DNA from: Anaeromyxobacter terrae
GTDB lineage: Bacteria; Myxococcota; Myxococcia; Myxococcales; Anaeromyxobacteraceae
NCBI RefSeq assembly: GCF_022690685.1
Contig: NZ_JALCYY010000026.1
Coordinates: forward strand, 1 to 64,000
Length of the DNA stretch: 64,000 bases
Direction: 5' to 3'
The position numbers and the translations under genes are program-made. This document shows, one piece after another, positions 23,699 to 30,324 of this stretch. Position 1 is the stretch's first letter, and each line of letters starts with the position of its first letter. The notes beneath the pieces are model-generated. The model saw only the letters and a program-made list of their open reading frames with translations. It made no database searches and had not been told where the DNA came from.

Positions 23699-24571
23699 TC
23701 ACGTCTTCTGCCAGATGCGGACCCAGTCCACGTCCATCCCGGTCGTGCTCGTCGCGCGCGCGCCGTAGCCGCCGGCCGGCACGAAGCCGGCCCAGCTCGC
23801 GTCGGCGACCTCGCAGGTGAGCTGCACGTACTCGCTCCGGTGCGAGATCGCCGCGTCGGTCGTCCAGGCCGGCAGCCCGTCGATGTAGAAGGTGTAGCCC
23901 ACGTCGGTCCAGAGCACGCCGAAGACGTGCCACTCGCCCTGGATCGGCGCGTTGCCGGGGAGTGACACGACCTTCTGGACGTTCTGCCGCGAGGACGCGG
24001 TGCGATCCCAGTTCAGGTTCATCGCCGACATGTCGCGCAGCGCGGTCCAGCCGTGGTCATCCGTCGCGCGGTGCTCGACGACGTCGATCTCCACGCCCGC
24101 CGTGCCCGGGTCACCCATCGGATTGCCGTTCGTCGGCGAGTCGATCCAGAACGCGCACCACTCGCCCGGCGAGTCGTGGAAGCGGATGCGCGCCTCGAAG
24201 TAACCGTAGGTCACCTCGACGACGCCCTGCGTGCCGAGGAACCCGGTGTGGTGCCGGCCGGACGCGTCGGTGTAGGTCGTGAGCGTGAGCAGGCCGTCGT
24301 GCACGGAGGCCGCGTCCGGCGTGGCGATCGCGTCGAGGCGCGGGGCGGAGAGCGCGCTCCACGCCGGGCCGAGCGCGCTGCCCTCGAACTCGTCCTGCCA
24401 GACGAGCTTGTAGCCTTGCGGAGGCAGCGCACCGGGGTTCGCGTTCGCCGGCACCTCCGTGGGAGGCGACGTCGGCTGCTGGCGCGGCGGCTCGGGGGGC
24501 GGCGTGAGCCCGCACGCGGCCGCGAGCGCGACCAGGGCGGCGAGGCTCGCTCCCTCCAGCATCGTTCGCAT
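23699..24571 (-). CDS. GH16 family glycoside hydrolase lipoprotein
   Basis: Product of 290 residues. Lipoprotein signal ends LAAAC (about residue 20), then a Pro/Thr linker and a GH16 beta-jelly-roll (about residues 50-290). The catalytic signature EIDVVE contains the nucleophile and acid/base of this family (beta-glucanases, agarases and similar enzymes that cut beta-1,3 or beta-1,4 links). Start at ATG 24571 with GGGAGGGGAAG upstream. Last gene of the leftward polysaccharide operon, 26 bp after the DUF3131/beta-barrel gene. Likely trims the polymer made by the upstream synthase, at the cell surface. Confidence 0.88.
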   Translation of the reverse strand: MRTMLEGASLAALVALAAACGLTPPPEPPRQQPTSPPTEVPANANPGALPPQGYKLVWQDEFEGSALGPAWSALSAPRLDAIATPDAASVHDGLLTLTTYTDASGRHHTGFLGTQGVVEVTYGYFEARIRFHDSPGEWCAFWIDSPTNGNPMGDPGTAGVEIDVVEHRATDDHGWTALRDMSAMNLNWDRTASSRQNVQKVVSLPGNAPIQGEWHVFGVLWTDVGYTFYIDGLPAWTTDAAISHRSEYVQLTCEVADASWAGFVPAGGYGARATSTTGMDVDWVRIWQKT

Positions 24572-24597
24572 CACGGTCTTCCCCTCCCAGCGTGCCG

Positions 24598-26826
24598 CTA
24601 GAACGCGAGGTTCACGCCCACCGCGAGCATGCCGTTGTGGGACCAGCTCGTCGGTCCCCAGTCGTAGTAGGTGACGTAGAACGTGCCCGGCCTCCAGTCC
24701 CACCGGCCGAACCCGTAGACGATCCGCCAGCGCGGCGTCCCGGAAGGCCCCTCGAACACGCGCGGCACGGTCCAGCCGATCCCACCCATGGCGAACCACT
24801 TCCCGGCGACGGTGAGCGTCGCCCGCGCGCTCACGTAGGGCCCGCCGGCGAAGGGGACCGTGCCCCCGACGAGCGGCGAGAGGCAGAACGCGCCGCCGCA
24901 GAGGTTCGGCCCACGGTAGCCGAGGTTGAGCTCGGCCCCGTGCATGGCGAGCCCGTCCCCGGGCCGGACCGGCCCCCAGTTGTCGAGGTGCAGGAAGAAC
25001 GTCCGGCCCCGCCAGTCGTCCCAGCCGATCCCCCACAGCATCCGCGCGTTGCCGGTGGGCGAGAACGGCGTGGCCTCCGCGCCGAACCGCAGGAACGAGG
25101 CGCGCCACGGCCAGAGCGTCGCGACCGCCCCGGCGCCGGCGCGATCGACGCCGCGGTAGTCGGTGAACAGGGAGAGCGTGAGCGGGTGCGCGTACAGCCG
25201 GGCGCGGCGCGGCGGCGCCGGGGGGGCGAGTGCCGGCGCCGCCGAGATCGCCTCTGCGCGCGCGGCCTCCGGCGTCCCGGGGTAGCAGGCACCGGCGGCG
25301 GCCGGGAAGGCGGCAGGGACGGTGACGCCGCGGCGAGCGGACCTTGCCTGTGGGCCGCTCGGCGCCCCGTGCGGCGGACGGTGCAGCGGTCCAGTGCGCT
25401 CGAACAGGATCGCCTCGAGGATGATCCCATTCGTGTTCGCGTTGAGGGATCTGTTCACCCCGCCCCGCTCGTAGATCCCGGCGTACCAGCCGCGCTCGGG
25501 ATCGCGCGCCTCGGCGACCGCGCGGCGGAGCACGCGGGAGTACGGATCCTCGGGGAAGAGCGTCGCGAGCGCGAACGCCGCCTTGGTGGAGAGCGCGCGG
25601 AACCGCGTGGCGTCGTCGCCGGTGGGCGTGACGGCCTGCCAGGGCCCGCCGTCCGCCCAGATCGCGCCGTACACGAACCACGGCGCCTCGTCGACGTGAT
25701 CCTCGCTCGCGGCCGTCGGGATCCCGGTCCGCTCCCACCGCCGCCGCTGCACCTCGAAGACTCGCCGCAGGAGCTCGCCCCGCTCGCCGTCGCGCCCGAG
25801 CTCGAACGCGCCGAGGACCCACGGATCGGTGACGAGCGCGTTCACTGCCCCGAACCGCCGCCGATCGCGCGTATCGTGGCGGACCGGCACGCCGAGGATC
25901 GGGGTGTCCGCGGCGAAGCGGTCGTAGGCGCGAGCGCGGGACATCGCGAACCCGAGCCGGGCGAAGCTCTCCGCGGCGTACTGCTCGTACCCGAGCCGCC
26001 CCTCCTGCACGACCTGCACCTTGCCGCGGTCGTCGACGATCGCGCCGTGGAGCTCGCCGTCGCCGAGGAGCCGGCAGTAGCGCCAGCGCCCGAGGACGCG
26101 TGCGACCGCCGCGCGGTGCTCCGGGGCGCGCTCGGCGAGGACCGTCAGGGCCGACGCCAGCCGGGCGAGATCGACGGCCGAGAAGCCGATGCCGGCGGCG
26201 GTCGGCTTGTTCGCGTAGTCCGCCATCCTGCCCGTCGCGGCGTCGTACGCCTTGTTCGGCAGCTCGTTCTGGAAGAGCGGCTGCATCGCGAGGGTCCAGA
26301 GCAGCGTGTCCATGCGCGTGTCGAAGGTGGCCCCGTCGACGAGGCCGAGGTCACGCGCGGCGAGCGTGGCGAAGACCGTCGAGCCGAGATCCCACATCGA
26401 GGTGTTCGAGTAGCCCTCGACCGAGTTCACCAGCCCCGTCGCGGGGTGGTAGTTCCGCTCGAAGTACCGCCAGGCGATCTGCGCCGCCTCGAGCTCGGGA
26501 TCCGCGGGGCGCGCGGGCTCCGCGCTCGGCGCGGCCGAGGCCGCGGGCGGTGGCGCAGGCTGCGCGCTCGGTGCCGCCGACTGCGCGGGCGGTGGCGCCT
26601 GCTCCGCGATCGGTGCCCCTTGCTCCGCGGGCGCCGTCGCCTCCGGCGCCGGCTCGTCGGCGAGCGCGCCCTGCTCGCCGGCCGGCTCCCGCTGCTCCGT
26701 CGCGGTGGAGTCCTCCACCGCCCCGGCCTCCACCGCGGGCGGGGCGGTCGCGTCGGCGCCTGCGGCGCCGCGTGGAGCGACCGCGAGCGCCGCGGCGAGG
26801 ACGGCGACGAGGGCGCGTGCGCTCAC
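24598..26826 (-). CDS. Secreted DUF3131 protein with C-terminal beta-barrel-like part
   Basis: Product of 742 residues. Signal peptide (about 1-24), a low-complexity Ala/Pro/Glu linker (about 25-110), a DUF3131 alpha-helical domain (about 115-490) that matches the upstream protein in order of motifs (AWRYFERNY, NKAYDAATG, GRLGYEQYAA, NANTNGIILEA), then about 230 residues rich in alternating aromatic strands ending in AVGVNLAF. A terminal Phe and such strands suggest an outer-membrane beta-barrel. The GTG start overlaps the upstream stop (GTGA). DUF3131 proteins resemble (alpha/alpha)-barrel carbohydrate enzymes. Here it may couple polymer processing to export. Function inferred. Confidence 0.8.
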   Translation of the reverse strand: MSARALVAVLAAALAVAPRGAAGADATAPPAVEAGAVEDSTATEQREPAGEQGALADEPAPEATAPAEQGAPIAEQAPPPAQSAAPSAQPAPPPAASAAPSAEPARPADPELEAAQIAWRYFERNYHPATGLVNSVEGYSNTSMWDLGSTVFATLAARDLGLVDGATFDTRMDTLLWTLAMQPLFQNELPNKAYDAATGRMADYANKPTAAGIGFSAVDLARLASALTVLAERAPEHRAAVARVLGRWRYCRLLGDGELHGAIVDDRGKVQVVQEGRLGYEQYAAESFARLGFAMSRARAYDRFAADTPILGVPVRHDTRDRRRFGAVNALVTDPWVLGAFELGRDGERGELLRRVFEVQRRRWERTGIPTAASEDHVDEAPWFVYGAIWADGGPWQAVTPTGDDATRFRALSTKAAFALATLFPEDPYSRVLRRAVAEARDPERGWYAGIYERGGVNRSLNANTNGIILEAILFERTGPLHRPPHGAPSGPQARSARRGVTVPAAFPAAAGACYPGTPEAARAEAISAAPALAPPAPPRRARLYAHPLTLSLFTDYRGVDRAGAGAVATLWPWRASFLRFGAEATPFSPTGNARMLWGIGWDDWRGRTFFLHLDNWGPVRPGDGLAMHGAELNLGYRGPNLCGGAFCLSPLVGGTVPFAGGPYVSARATLTVAGKWFAMGGIGWTVPRVFEGPSGTPRWRIVYGFGRWDWRPGTFYVTYYDWGPTSWSHNGMLAVGVNLAF

Positions 26827-28169
26827 CGCCGGGCCTCCGAGGCGTCGGGCTCCTCGGGCCGCAGCCAGGGGCCGTGCGCGCGGTAAGCGAGCGCCTCCAG
26901 CACGAGCGCGTTCGTGTTGAGCGACAGCGCCCGGTTCACCGCGCCGTCCCGGTCGTAGCGCCCGGCGAAGAGCCCGCGCGCGTCCACGAGCTCCCGCGCC
27001 GCCGTGAGGAGGCGCTCCGGATAGCTTCCATCGAACAGCACGCCCCACCCCACCGCCGCCTTCGTCGAGAACCCGAGGTCCTGCGGGACGGGCGTGCCGT
27101 CGGGCGCGAACGCCGTCCAGCGCTCGTCCCCGTTCAGCACCGCCGAGTACGCGAACCACGGCGCGCGATCGAGCGCGTCCTCGGAGATCGCGGTGAGCTT
27201 CCCCGTCGTCGCGAAGCGCCGCTCCTGGACGCGCAGGAGCGCGCGCGCGATCGGGAGCGTCGTCGCGTCGAACCCGTGCTCGAGGGCGTCGAGGATCCAG
27301 GGCTCCGACAGCACCGCGGCGTGCGTGCCGCCGTACCGGCGCGGGTGGCGATCGTCGTGCGGGATCCGCTGCCCGAGGACGTCCGAGAACGCGAGGTGGG
27401 CGCGGTAGTCGATGGCGCGCGAGACCGGCACGCCCCACGGCAGGAGCGCCTTCGCCGCGTACTGCTCGTAGCCGAAGCGGCCTTCCTGGTACCTCTCGAC
27501 GGCGCCGTCGGCCCGCCGCTGCGCGCCGACCAGCGCGGCCCCGTCGCTGAGCTCGCCGAGCCGCCAGCGCGACACCGCGCGCCGCACGAGCGGCGTCAGC
27601 TCGGGGTGGCGCCAGGTCACGATCCACAGCGGGACGAGGACGCGGGCGACGTCGAGGGCCGACCAGCCGATGCCGTTCGGCGCCAGCCGGTTGTCGTACC
27701 CGACCATCTCGAGCGTGCGCGTGTCATACGCCTTGTTCGGCAGCTTGCGGTCGAAGAGCGGGATCGCGCGGAGCGACTTCAGGGCGCGGCGCAGGCGAAG
27801 CCCCGCCGCGTCGCTCGAGATGACGCCGAGGTCCTCCGCGGCGAGGATCGCCATGAGCTGAGACCCGGTGTCCCACATCGTGGTCGAGGGGTAGCCCTCG
27901 ACCGAGCCGGCGAGGCCGGTCGCCGCGTCGGTGTTCCGCTCGAAGTAGCTCCAGGCGGCTCGCGCCATCCGCCGCTCGTCCGCGTCGAGCGGCGAGGGCC
28001 GCCGCAGCGACGGCTCGTCGCCGGTCGCGAGCGCGGCGAGCCCCGGAGCCGGCGACACCTCGGCCCGCGCGAGCTTCCCGGCGTAGTGCACCGTGAAGAT
28101 CGCGACCGCGAGCCCGACGAGGAACGCGAGGTGCGATCGCGCAGTTAGGAGTCCACCCCAGAAGCTCAC
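26823..28169 (-). CDS. Membrane-anchored DUF3131 protein
   Basis: Product of 448 residues with an N-terminal membrane anchor (about 10-28) and one DUF3131 domain (about 60-440) showing AWSYFERNT, NKAYDTRT, GRFGYEQYAA and LNTNALVLEA. It lacks the linker and barrel of its downstream paralogue. GTG start overlapping the synthase stop by four bases. The paired anchored and secreted DUF3131 proteins probably face the periplasm, on the path of the polymer made by the GT2 synthase. Whether they cut, modify or merely bind glycan is not known from sequence. Confidence 0.82.
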   Translation of the reverse strand: MSFWGGLLTARSHLAFLVGLAVAIFTVHYAGKLARAEVSPAPGLAALATGDEPSLRRPSPLDADERRMARAAWSYFERNTDAATGLAGSVEGYPSTTMWDTGSQLMAILAAEDLGVISSDAAGLRLRRALKSLRAIPLFDRKLPNKAYDTRTLEMVGYDNRLAPNGIGWSALDVARVLVPLWIVTWRHPELTPLVRRAVSRWRLGELSDGAALVGAQRRADGAVERYQEGRFGYEQYAAKALLPWGVPVSRAIDYRAHLAFSDVLGQRIPHDDRHPRRYGGTHAAVLSEPWILDALEHGFDATTLPIARALLRVQERRFATTGKLTAISEDALDRAPWFAYSAVLNGDERWTAFAPDGTPVPQDLGFSTKAAVGWGVLFDGSYPERLLTAARELVDARGLFAGRYDRDGAVNRALSLNTNALVLEALAYRAHGPWLRPEEPDASEARR

Positions 28170-29998
28170 GCCGTGACCTCCTTCGGCCGCCTCGGCATGA
28201 GCCCAGCCCCGATGAACGGGGCGAGGCAGGCGGCGTTGTGCAGGCTCCAGAACAGGTTCGCGAGGTACGCGGCCGCCTCCCCGGGCGTAGCCAGCGGCCG
28301 CGCGACGAGCGCGCCCCGGTAGACGAGCCCGACCGCGATCGCGCCGAGCAGCACGAGGTGCGGCACGACGAGCCCGACCGGGCGCCGCGACGAGGCGATC
28401 TTGGGCGTGACGGGGAACCGCAGCGGGCGCCGGGCGATCACGTGGGCGAGCGCGCGGAGGTTCAGCCAGAACGAGGCCAGGTGGTACTGCTCGCCGCGCC
28501 AGGTCGGTACGCCCCACGTGCCGACCATCAGGGCGAGGCGGCTGGCGAGGAGGAACGGCACGATGCGGACGGCGAACTCGCCGTCGTACGCCCGCACCGG
28601 CGTCACCCCCGCGAAGAAGAACGCGAGCGGCGCGAGCATGAGCGGCAGCACCCACAGCGGCGCGAGGTACGCGTACATCGTCGCGCCGTACATCACCTTC
28701 TGCCAGGCCGTGAGGCGGGGCAGGCGCAGCGGGTTGTCGTGCAGCGCGATGTCGAGCGTGCCGCTCGCGTACTTGAAGCGCTGGATGCTCCAGGCGAGCA
28801 GGTCCTGGGGCGAGAGCATGCGGGTGAGGACGCGCGGGTGGTACACGGAGCGCCAGCGCCGCGGCGCCGCGTGGAGCCGGATGCTCGTGTAGATGTCCTC
28901 CGACACGTGGAACTCGTACGGCGTGAGCTCGATGCGCCGTGCCGCCTGCGACGCGAGCGCGGTGGCGAGCGTCGCGCGGCGCGCGCGGTCGGGGACCCGC
29001 GCCGTGATCGGACGGATGGCCGCCGCCACCGCGGCGCCGAACTCCGTCAGGGCCCCCTCCATCACCGCCTCGCGCCGGTGCACGCTGCCCGCGCCGCAGC
29101 AGAACGCGGCGTTGCACCAGTTCCGGCACCGCTGGACCACGTGGTAGAAGGCGCGCGGATCCGACCCGAGCCGGTCTGCCCCGACGGCGACCGGCCCGAT
29201 CGCCGCCTCGACGGCGCGGCCGAGGAGGCGCCCCGCGCGCCCGAGCCGGGCCCGGCGCGCGAGCCAGTCCGGGAGCCGCACGCCGGCATCGAGGTCGTAG
29301 AAGGACTGGGGCGTCTGGACCCACGCGACGCGCGGATCGCGGAAGTACCCGAGCGTCTCCTCGAGCAGGGCGGGCAGCGGCCGCGTGTCCGCGTCGCAGA
29401 TGACGACGAGGTCGCCGTCGCTGTGCTCGAGCCCGTTGCGGAGGTTGCCCGCCTTGTACCCCTCGTTCGTCGCCCGGGAGAGGTACCCCACCCCCTCTTC
29501 CCCGGCCATCCGCCGCATCTCGGGGCGCCGACCGTCGTCGAGGACGTACACACGCACCGTCAACGGGTGCGGATAGGTGAGCTGCTTCGCGTCGCGCACT
29601 GAGAGGCGCACGAGCCCGACGGGCTCGTCGTAGGTCGTGATCATCACGTCGACCTTGATCGGCCGGTCGTGCGGGAGCGGATCGTCGCGGATCTCGTTCA
29701 CCGTTCGTGGAGCCGGCCGAGCGACGGGATCCTCGGCCCGCCAGATCGACAGGAAGAAGACGACCGCCCCCAGGTACGCGAGCGTCTCCGCCGCGGCGAT
29801 GACGACCGCGAACCCGAGCGCGTCCGGGTTGAGCGACGCGGTCCAGCGCCAGGCGAGGTACCAGCCGCCCAGCACGGTCGCGAGGACCGCGAGCACCTGG
29901 AAGGCGAAGTTGCGCACCCCGTCGCCGCGTGCCCGCACGCGCGGCGGGGCGGTCTCGGTCTCGATCCGCGGCACGTACGATGCGTCCAAGGCGATCAC
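28166..29998 (-). CDS. Cellulose-synthase-like GT2 membrane glycosyltransferase
   Basis: Product of 610 residues. Two N-terminal helices (about 30-50 and 58-82), a cytoplasmic GT2 domain with VDVMITTYDEP, CDADTR (metal-binding DxD), SEDIYT (acceptor ED) and QRFKYASG, a variant of the QxxRW motif, then several C-terminal helices forming a channel. This is the layout of processive synthases of the BcsA family, which make and extrude a beta-glycan. No PilZ (cyclic-di-GMP) domain is present, so control must differ from BcsA. GTG start overlaps the STAS gene stop. First enzyme of a five-gene translationally coupled operon. Confidence 0.88.
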   Translation of the reverse strand: MIALDASYVPRIETETAPPRVRARGDGVRNFAFQVLAVLATVLGGWYLAWRWTASLNPDALGFAVVIAAAETLAYLGAVVFFLSIWRAEDPVARPAPRTVNEIRDDPLPHDRPIKVDVMITTYDEPVGLVRLSVRDAKQLTYPHPLTVRVYVLDDGRRPEMRRMAGEEGVGYLSRATNEGYKAGNLRNGLEHSDGDLVVICDADTRPLPALLEETLGYFRDPRVAWVQTPQSFYDLDAGVRLPDWLARRARLGRAGRLLGRAVEAAIGPVAVGADRLGSDPRAFYHVVQRCRNWCNAAFCCGAGSVHRREAVMEGALTEFGAAVAAAIRPITARVPDRARRATLATALASQAARRIELTPYEFHVSEDIYTSIRLHAAPRRWRSVYHPRVLTRMLSPQDLLAWSIQRFKYASGTLDIALHDNPLRLPRLTAWQKVMYGATMYAYLAPLWVLPLMLAPLAFFFAGVTPVRAYDGEFAVRIVPFLLASRLALMVGTWGVPTWRGEQYHLASFWLNLRALAHVIARRPLRFPVTPKIASSRRPVGLVVPHLVLLGAIAVGLVYRGALVARPLATPGEAAAYLANLFWSLHNAACLAPFIGAGLMPRRPKEVTA

Positions 29999-30324
29999 TC
30001 CCCGACGGCGGCTGACATGTCGTCGAACTGAGGGAAGAGCTCGTCCAGCCGCGTCCGCGCGAGGAGCGCGCGGACGGACGGCGAGGCGTGGGCGAGGCGC
30101 AGCTCGGCGCCTGCGTCCATCGCCTTCAGGATCGAGATGAGCGCCGCGAGCGCCGAGCCGTCCATGGACGCGACGTGCTCGAGCGACACGACGACGCGCC
30201 GCCGCCCCCGCGCCTGCTCGGCGACGCGCGCCCGCAGCTCCACGGCGCACTCGGCGTCGAGCCGCGGGGCGAGCGGCGTGACGACGAGCGATCCGTTCCT
30301 GTGCGCGAAGCGGAGATGGAGCAT
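29995..30324 (-). CDS. STAS-domain anti-anti-sigma-like protein
   Basis: Product of 109 residues, a single STAS domain. The phosphorylatable serine region is ASMDGSALAALIS (about residues 60-72). This matches SpoIIAA/RsbV-type proteins that switch partners with an anti-sigma kinase, and MlaB-like proteins. Start at ATG 30324. It is the first gene of the polysaccharide operon and overlaps the synthase by four bases, so its product is made in step with the synthase. A control role over polymer synthesis through partner switching is inferred. No kinase or phosphatase is nearby. Confidence 0.85.
   Translation of the reverse strand: MLHLRFAHRNGSLVVTPLAPRLDAECAVELRARVAEQARGRRRVVVSLEHVASMDGSALAALISILKAMDAGAELRLAHASPSVRALLARTRLDELFPQFDDMSAAVGE

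Follow-up and report, generated by a model that had tools for sequence, protein, structure and literature searches.

Cyclic glucan synthases (CGS) combine a GT2, a GH189 and a GH94 domain in one chain (PMC10834661, PMC11842490), and the SGL clan includes the beta-1,2-glucanases of the families GH144, GH162 and GH192-194 (PMC12102758). In Vibrio fischeri, the Syp polysaccharide is controlled by the single-domain STAS protein SypA together with the serine kinase/phosphatase SypE, and the paper on this system gives the target level of SypA as unknown (PMC11112999). The locus type described here has been listed earlier, without a function, for Klebsiella pneumoniae, where block 3b of the ecocline paper gives a similar-looking locus as a gene list (PMC12974863). 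Unlike block 3b, the Anaeromyxobacter version is shorter and possesses a GH16 gene and a fused beta domain, and the two can be likened by gene list only.

The operon was found in a stretch of 64,000 nucleotides from Anaeromyxobacter terrae (contig NZ_JALCYY010000026.1, positions 1 to 64,000), hereafter referred to as the window. It consists of five genes on the minus strand (30324-23699), which encode, in this order, a STAS-domain protein (29995..30324, 109 aa; Pfam STAS 1.9e-13), a processive GT2 synthase with a BcsA-like core (28166..29998, 610 aa, GTG start; Pfam GT2 2.3e-13), DUF3131-A (26823..28169, 448 aa) with an N-terminal ARSH signal-anchor and a Pfam DUF3131 domain, DUF3131-B (24598..26826, 742 aa) with a signal peptide, a DUF3131 domain and a C-terminal beta domain, and a putative GH16 lipoprotein with the catalytic motif EIDVVE (23699..24571, 290 aa; Pfam GH16 2.3e-13). 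The Pfam DUF3131 scores of the two DUF3131 proteins were 2.7e-129 and 2.3e-138. GTGA overlaps occur at the STAS/GT2, GT2/DUF3131-A and DUF3131-A/DUF3131-B junctions, and a gap of 26 bp separates DUF3131-B from GH16, so that the STAS-led layout given in an earlier note proved to be exact in the open frames and in the Pfam scan. In the same note the machine looked complete, which was not established: in the five operon proteins, Pfam gave no match to BcsB, PilZ or a TPR-type export protein, and a linked STAS kinase or phosphatase is missing.

The product of the gene set is probably a glucan of the cell surface or of the periplasm, and we see an even chance that the operon represents a glucan synthase machine with a GT2, two DUF3131 processors, a STAS switch and an accessory GH16. 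In such a machine, the GT2 of the inner membrane would polymerise a beta-glucan and extrude the chain into the periplasm. The emerging chain would be acted upon by DUF3131-A, which would be anchored in the inner membrane, and by DUF3131-B, a copy in the periplasm that is linked to a probable outer-membrane barrel. The STAS protein would be the output of a partner switch, in which a kinase phosphorylates the serine residue and a SpoIIE phosphatase removes the phosphate, and this switch would act on the synthase or its complex and replace c-di-GMP and PilZ. GH16 might serve as a lineage-specific accessory hydrolase. The product, its linkage, the catalytic role of DUF3131, the membrane location of the beta domain and the target of STAS are those parts of the model that we infer. 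By analogy, the locus may work like a CGS or osmoregulated-glucan system joined to a STAS control of the SypA type; by the tests made, it falls outside BcsA, CGS and the established GH families.

The DUF3131 domain of DUF3131-B (residues 106-486; 25369..26511) is a predicted (alpha/alpha)6 barrel related to GH189 and GH144. In the AlphaFold2 model of DUF3131-B, most of residues 110-480 showed a pLDDT >90, and the best PDB fold for the domain was 8wy1 (Z 36.1, rmsd 2.6, 342 residues). Further top folds were 8rf9, 5z06, 5gzh (Z 33.3) and 8xul, as well as 6imu (Z 26.2). After these folds of beta-1,2-glucan enzymes, the Z score fell from 26 to 21.7, and other (alpha/alpha)6 families reached 21.7 or less. 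Homology to SGL clan and GH189-related enzymes was also detectable in the sequences: a DUF3131 profile search yielded 8wy1 at 2e-7 and CGS at 2.4e-4, the Pfam DUF3131 model scored CGS proteins above its own cut-off, and hhalign aligned DUF3131 with CGS domains of Myxococcota (97.1%, E 7e-11) over the N-terminal half only, the C-terminal half giving no alignment with CGS. Judged by the predicted structure, DUF3131 has a beta-1,2-glucanase/GH189 fold, which it shares with the (alpha/alpha)6 enzymes related to the SGL clan and GH189.

Like a CGS, the operon combines a processive GT2 with a glucan-processing domain of the same (alpha/alpha)6 fold and detectable homology. Unlike in a CGS, these are separate proteins, GH94 is absent, the GT2 is BcsA-like, DUF3131 is present in two copies, and a beta domain and a STAS switch are added. 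A true CGS is encoded on another contig of the same genome. The SGL clan glucanases resemble DUF3131 in fold (Z 26-33), but the identity is only about 9-16%, and the alignment suggests a retaining Glu of the GH189 type in DUF3131-B. The name DUF3131 was not found by a text search of PMC12102758, and the literature provided no functional paper under DUF3131 and no paper under PF11329. The position beside GH189 and the beta-1,2-glucanases gives DUF3131, to which no function had been assigned, and its locus a testable enzyme hypothesis. In another locus (L065:7896-9422, G040:C119), a stand-alone protein of 509 aa matches both the DUF3131 and the Glycoamylase families, and it is possible that this protein is an intermediate between DUF3131 and GH189.

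A candidate nucleophile of DUF3131-B is Glu375 (25702..25704). A script alignment based on the sequences alone placed it on the GH189 nucleophile E1442 in six of seven gap settings, which comprised all six full-length alignments; the seventh setting gave no usable alignment. Residue numbers of TiCGS were taken from PMC10834661 and checked against the printed chain. The simple diagonal score of the Q-x14-E block was modest (z 4.2). For E239, F286 and Y367 of XcSGL, the residues that define the SGL clan, the C-terminal half was left unaligned by the profile, and Glu275, Glu281 or Glu342 of DUF3131-B are possible candidates for the Glu. Neither profile nor script alignment placed the acid/base residue of DUF3131-B. 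The two copies may differ in activity, because Gly replaces Glu281 in the anchored copies of Pacificibacter and Celeribacter, hinting that these are inactive or altered. The anchored DUF3131 proteins of the alphaproteobacterial loci L010, L011, L012 and L013 show this Gly within the GYEQY motif.

The nearest solved relatives of the GT2 synthase are BcsA proteins (4e-30). Like BcsA, it possesses the GT2 core, with the motifs LDDG, DAD and SED, and a gating-loop-like FxVTxK motif (RFPVTPK, residues 527-533; 28400..28420). Unlike in BcsA/BcsB systems, QRFKY (residues 406-410; 28769..28783) stands in place of the canonical acceptor motif QxxRW, the GT2 has no Pfam match to PilZ, and BcsB is missing; DUF3131-A stands where an anchored periplasmic partner of the BcsB type would be expected. 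The NCBIfam CelA model gave 197.9 bits, below its cut-off of 699.1. The synthase ends 77 residues past FxVTPK and its clade relatives 69-89 residues past it. PilZ was also looked for in the long tails of Gemmatimonadota synthases, and none was reported by Pfam. The BcsA-like core without PilZ, which had been recognised before, was supported by its nearest solved relatives and by the Pfam scan. The DUF3131-linked synthases of cyanobacteria and Gemmatimonadota retain QRLRW. In BcsA, the R and W residues of QxxRW contact UDP and the acceptor sugar. The QRFKY motif may mark a clade of synthases with an acceptor site, and perhaps a linkage, unlike that of cellulose synthase.

OpgC-type acyltransferases occur in the loci of relatives, and because of these enzymes, the fold and the homology, we infer a beta-1,2-type glucan machine, similar to a cyclic glucan synthase whose parts are encoded individually. 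The fold similarity of DUF3131 does not fix the glucan linkage, and the neighbours GH16 and GH2 are not typical beta-1,2-glucan enzymes. That the locus represents a new class of glucan synthases, in which a PilZ-less QxxKY GT2 makes a beta-1,2 chain, GH189-like DUF3131 proteins process it and STAS and its kinase gate the synthase directly, is a tentative and rather doubtful proposal; in this class, the DUF3131 proteins would transglycosylate or cyclise the chain at the inner membrane and on the outer-membrane barrel. It is likewise rather unlikely that the operon is a cellulose-like machine, whose GT2 forms a glucan with beta-1,4 or mixed linkages and whose DUF3131 proteins have structural roles like BcsB or trim the chain like BcsZ, with no beta-1,2 chemistry involved. 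The closeness to BcsA, the CelA bit score and the kept FxVTPK would fit such a machine, as would GH16, since GH16 enzymes mostly have beta-1,3/1,4 glucans and galactans as substrates. However, QxxRW is replaced across the clade, the CelA score lies far under its cut-off, BcsB and PilZ are unmatched, and DUF3131 resembles beta-1,2-glucan enzymes with Z scores of 26-36, compared to at most 21.7 for the other (alpha/alpha)6 families.

Of the features of an RsbU/V/W system, the STAS protein possesses the phosphorylatable serine residue: Ser57 (MDGSAL) is conserved and occupies the place of the Ser that is phosphorylated in the DSSG motif. A linked kinase and phosphatase are absent from the window and from the Anaeromyxobacteraceae but present in most other loci, in which a SpoIIE phosphatase, in many cases carrying a receiver domain, and an RsbW-type HATPase are encoded next to STAS. 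Adjacent genes for SpoIIE, STAS and HATPase occur in Paracoccus, Pantoea and Salmonella, and one locus (L056) encodes an RR-SpoIIE-HATPase fusion. In a Thermosynechococcus MAG (L014:9720-12119), an RsbW-type HATPase_c_2 domain (2.9e-15) is inserted in the GT2 domain of the synthase, between LDDG and DxD, and its nearest relatives are encoded in the same locus of Calothrix and Nostoc by genes of their own. This insertion speaks for an action of the kinase on the synthase complex; the fusion was seen in one metagenome-assembled genome, in a synthase of the QRLRW and not of the QRFKY branch. The linked kinase and phosphatase genes of relatives and the inserted kinase domain make it plausible that, as proposed in the earlier note, STAS takes the place of c-di-GMP control. 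A kinase inside a synthase also provides a testable answer to the question of the target of polysaccharide-controlling single-domain STAS proteins.

The distances of STAS and GT2 correlate (r 0.89; 0/5000 permutations), to which species relatedness contributes, and the operon STAS proteins are, across phyla, closer to each other than to any other STAS of the A. terrae genome. It is unlikely that STAS controls gene expression as an anti-anti-sigma factor instead of the synthase, its position as the first gene reflecting mere co-transcription. Its STAS domain is canonical, with the Ser residue kept, and sigma factors are the targets of classic STAS proteins of the RsbV type; yet the inspected loci showed no sigma factor next to the operon, and both the co-evolution with GT2 and the kinase domain inside the L014 synthase speak against this explanation. 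In V. fischeri, SypA controls a polysaccharide, and a role as anti-sigma antagonist is unlikely (PMC11112999). The SypA/SypE system differs from the present one in its polysaccharide machinery and from one relative in that the latter has its kinase domain inside the synthase. Three other SpoIIE/HATPase modules are encoded in the same genome (C86, C67 and C94), each with its own STAS, and none stands out as an unlinked partner of the switch. Those on C86 and C67 (L074:7153-9959 and L076 5000-8540) are SpoIIE-HATPase-STAS modules, one of which lies beside multihaem cytochrome genes.

The C-terminal beta domain of DUF3131-B (residues 543-742; 24598..25200) is a putative outer-membrane barrel that ends in Phe. 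With a profile from residues 536-742, homologues were collected whose fusion to DUF3131 is restricted to Anaeromyxobacteraceae. Enterobacteria, Vibrio, Alphaproteobacteria and Saprospiraceae encode them as individual proteins within the same locus, and in other Myxococcota the domain is located behind an apparently degenerate DUF3131 segment. Repeated hairpins, an amphipathic strand periodicity and a mostly aromatic last residue characterize these homologues. Thus, the barrel postulated earlier is backed by the sequence signs, namely the aromatic C-terminus and the amphipathic strands, but not by structure prediction, as two predictions gave no usable model and the domain alone reached a pLDDT of 30.8 with several alignments tried. 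Going by these sequence features, the domain is likely located in the outer membrane, and its participation in export is speculation. A soluble or carbohydrate-binding domain would agree with the size of only ~200 residues, the twofold failure of structure prediction and the lack of a Pfam match. This explanation is nevertheless quite improbable in view of the amphipathic beta pattern, the aromatic residue that closes almost every homologue with a visible end, and the free-standing homologues with a signal peptide in other lineages.

For comparison, 28 related DUF3131/GT2 loci were read in addition to the window. A QR[FY]KY synthase occurs in 20 cases including the window, with a DUF3131 gene directly downstream in 20/20 and, according to the script, a STAS gene in the locus in 19/20 (in the twentieth, L064, STAS lies in the neighbouring piece L063); several loci stem from one species (three from Pacificibacter), so that these counts are not independent. 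These synthases originate from Myxococcota, Alphaproteobacteria, Gammaproteobacteria (including Pantoea and Salmonella plasmids) and Desulfobacterota. The complete order STAS-GT2-A-B-GH16 is specific for Anaeromyxobacteraceae among the loci compared and was also present in four other loci of this family (L004, L053, L054 and L055). The five-gene arrangement is therefore not due to chance, because it recurs in this family and GT2-DUF3131 with STAS recurs across phyla; the expected conservation of gene order was thus observed for GT2 followed by DUF3131, with STAS in the locus, across phyla and for the full order within the family. GH16 is confined to the Anaeromyxobacteraceae version. Among named genomes, that of Anaeromyxobacter soli is the closest (90% identity over DUF3131-B), and full-length DUF3131 pairs were detected in 3/9 genus members searched. 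In the loci compared, DUF3131-A is always encoded adjacent to the synthase, and its conserved N-terminal ARSH signal anchor suggests a possible contact with the synthase.

DNA searches of plasmids with the operon, of phages with DUF3131-A and of E. coli genomes with the Salmonella locus gave no match. Altogether, the locus occurs in five or more phyla and also on plasmids of enterobacteria. The plasmid-borne loci are L050 (Salmonella) and L049 (Pantoea); one of the plasmids was typed as conjugative, and OpgC, a hybrid kinase and GH2 are encoded in the neighbourhood of these loci.
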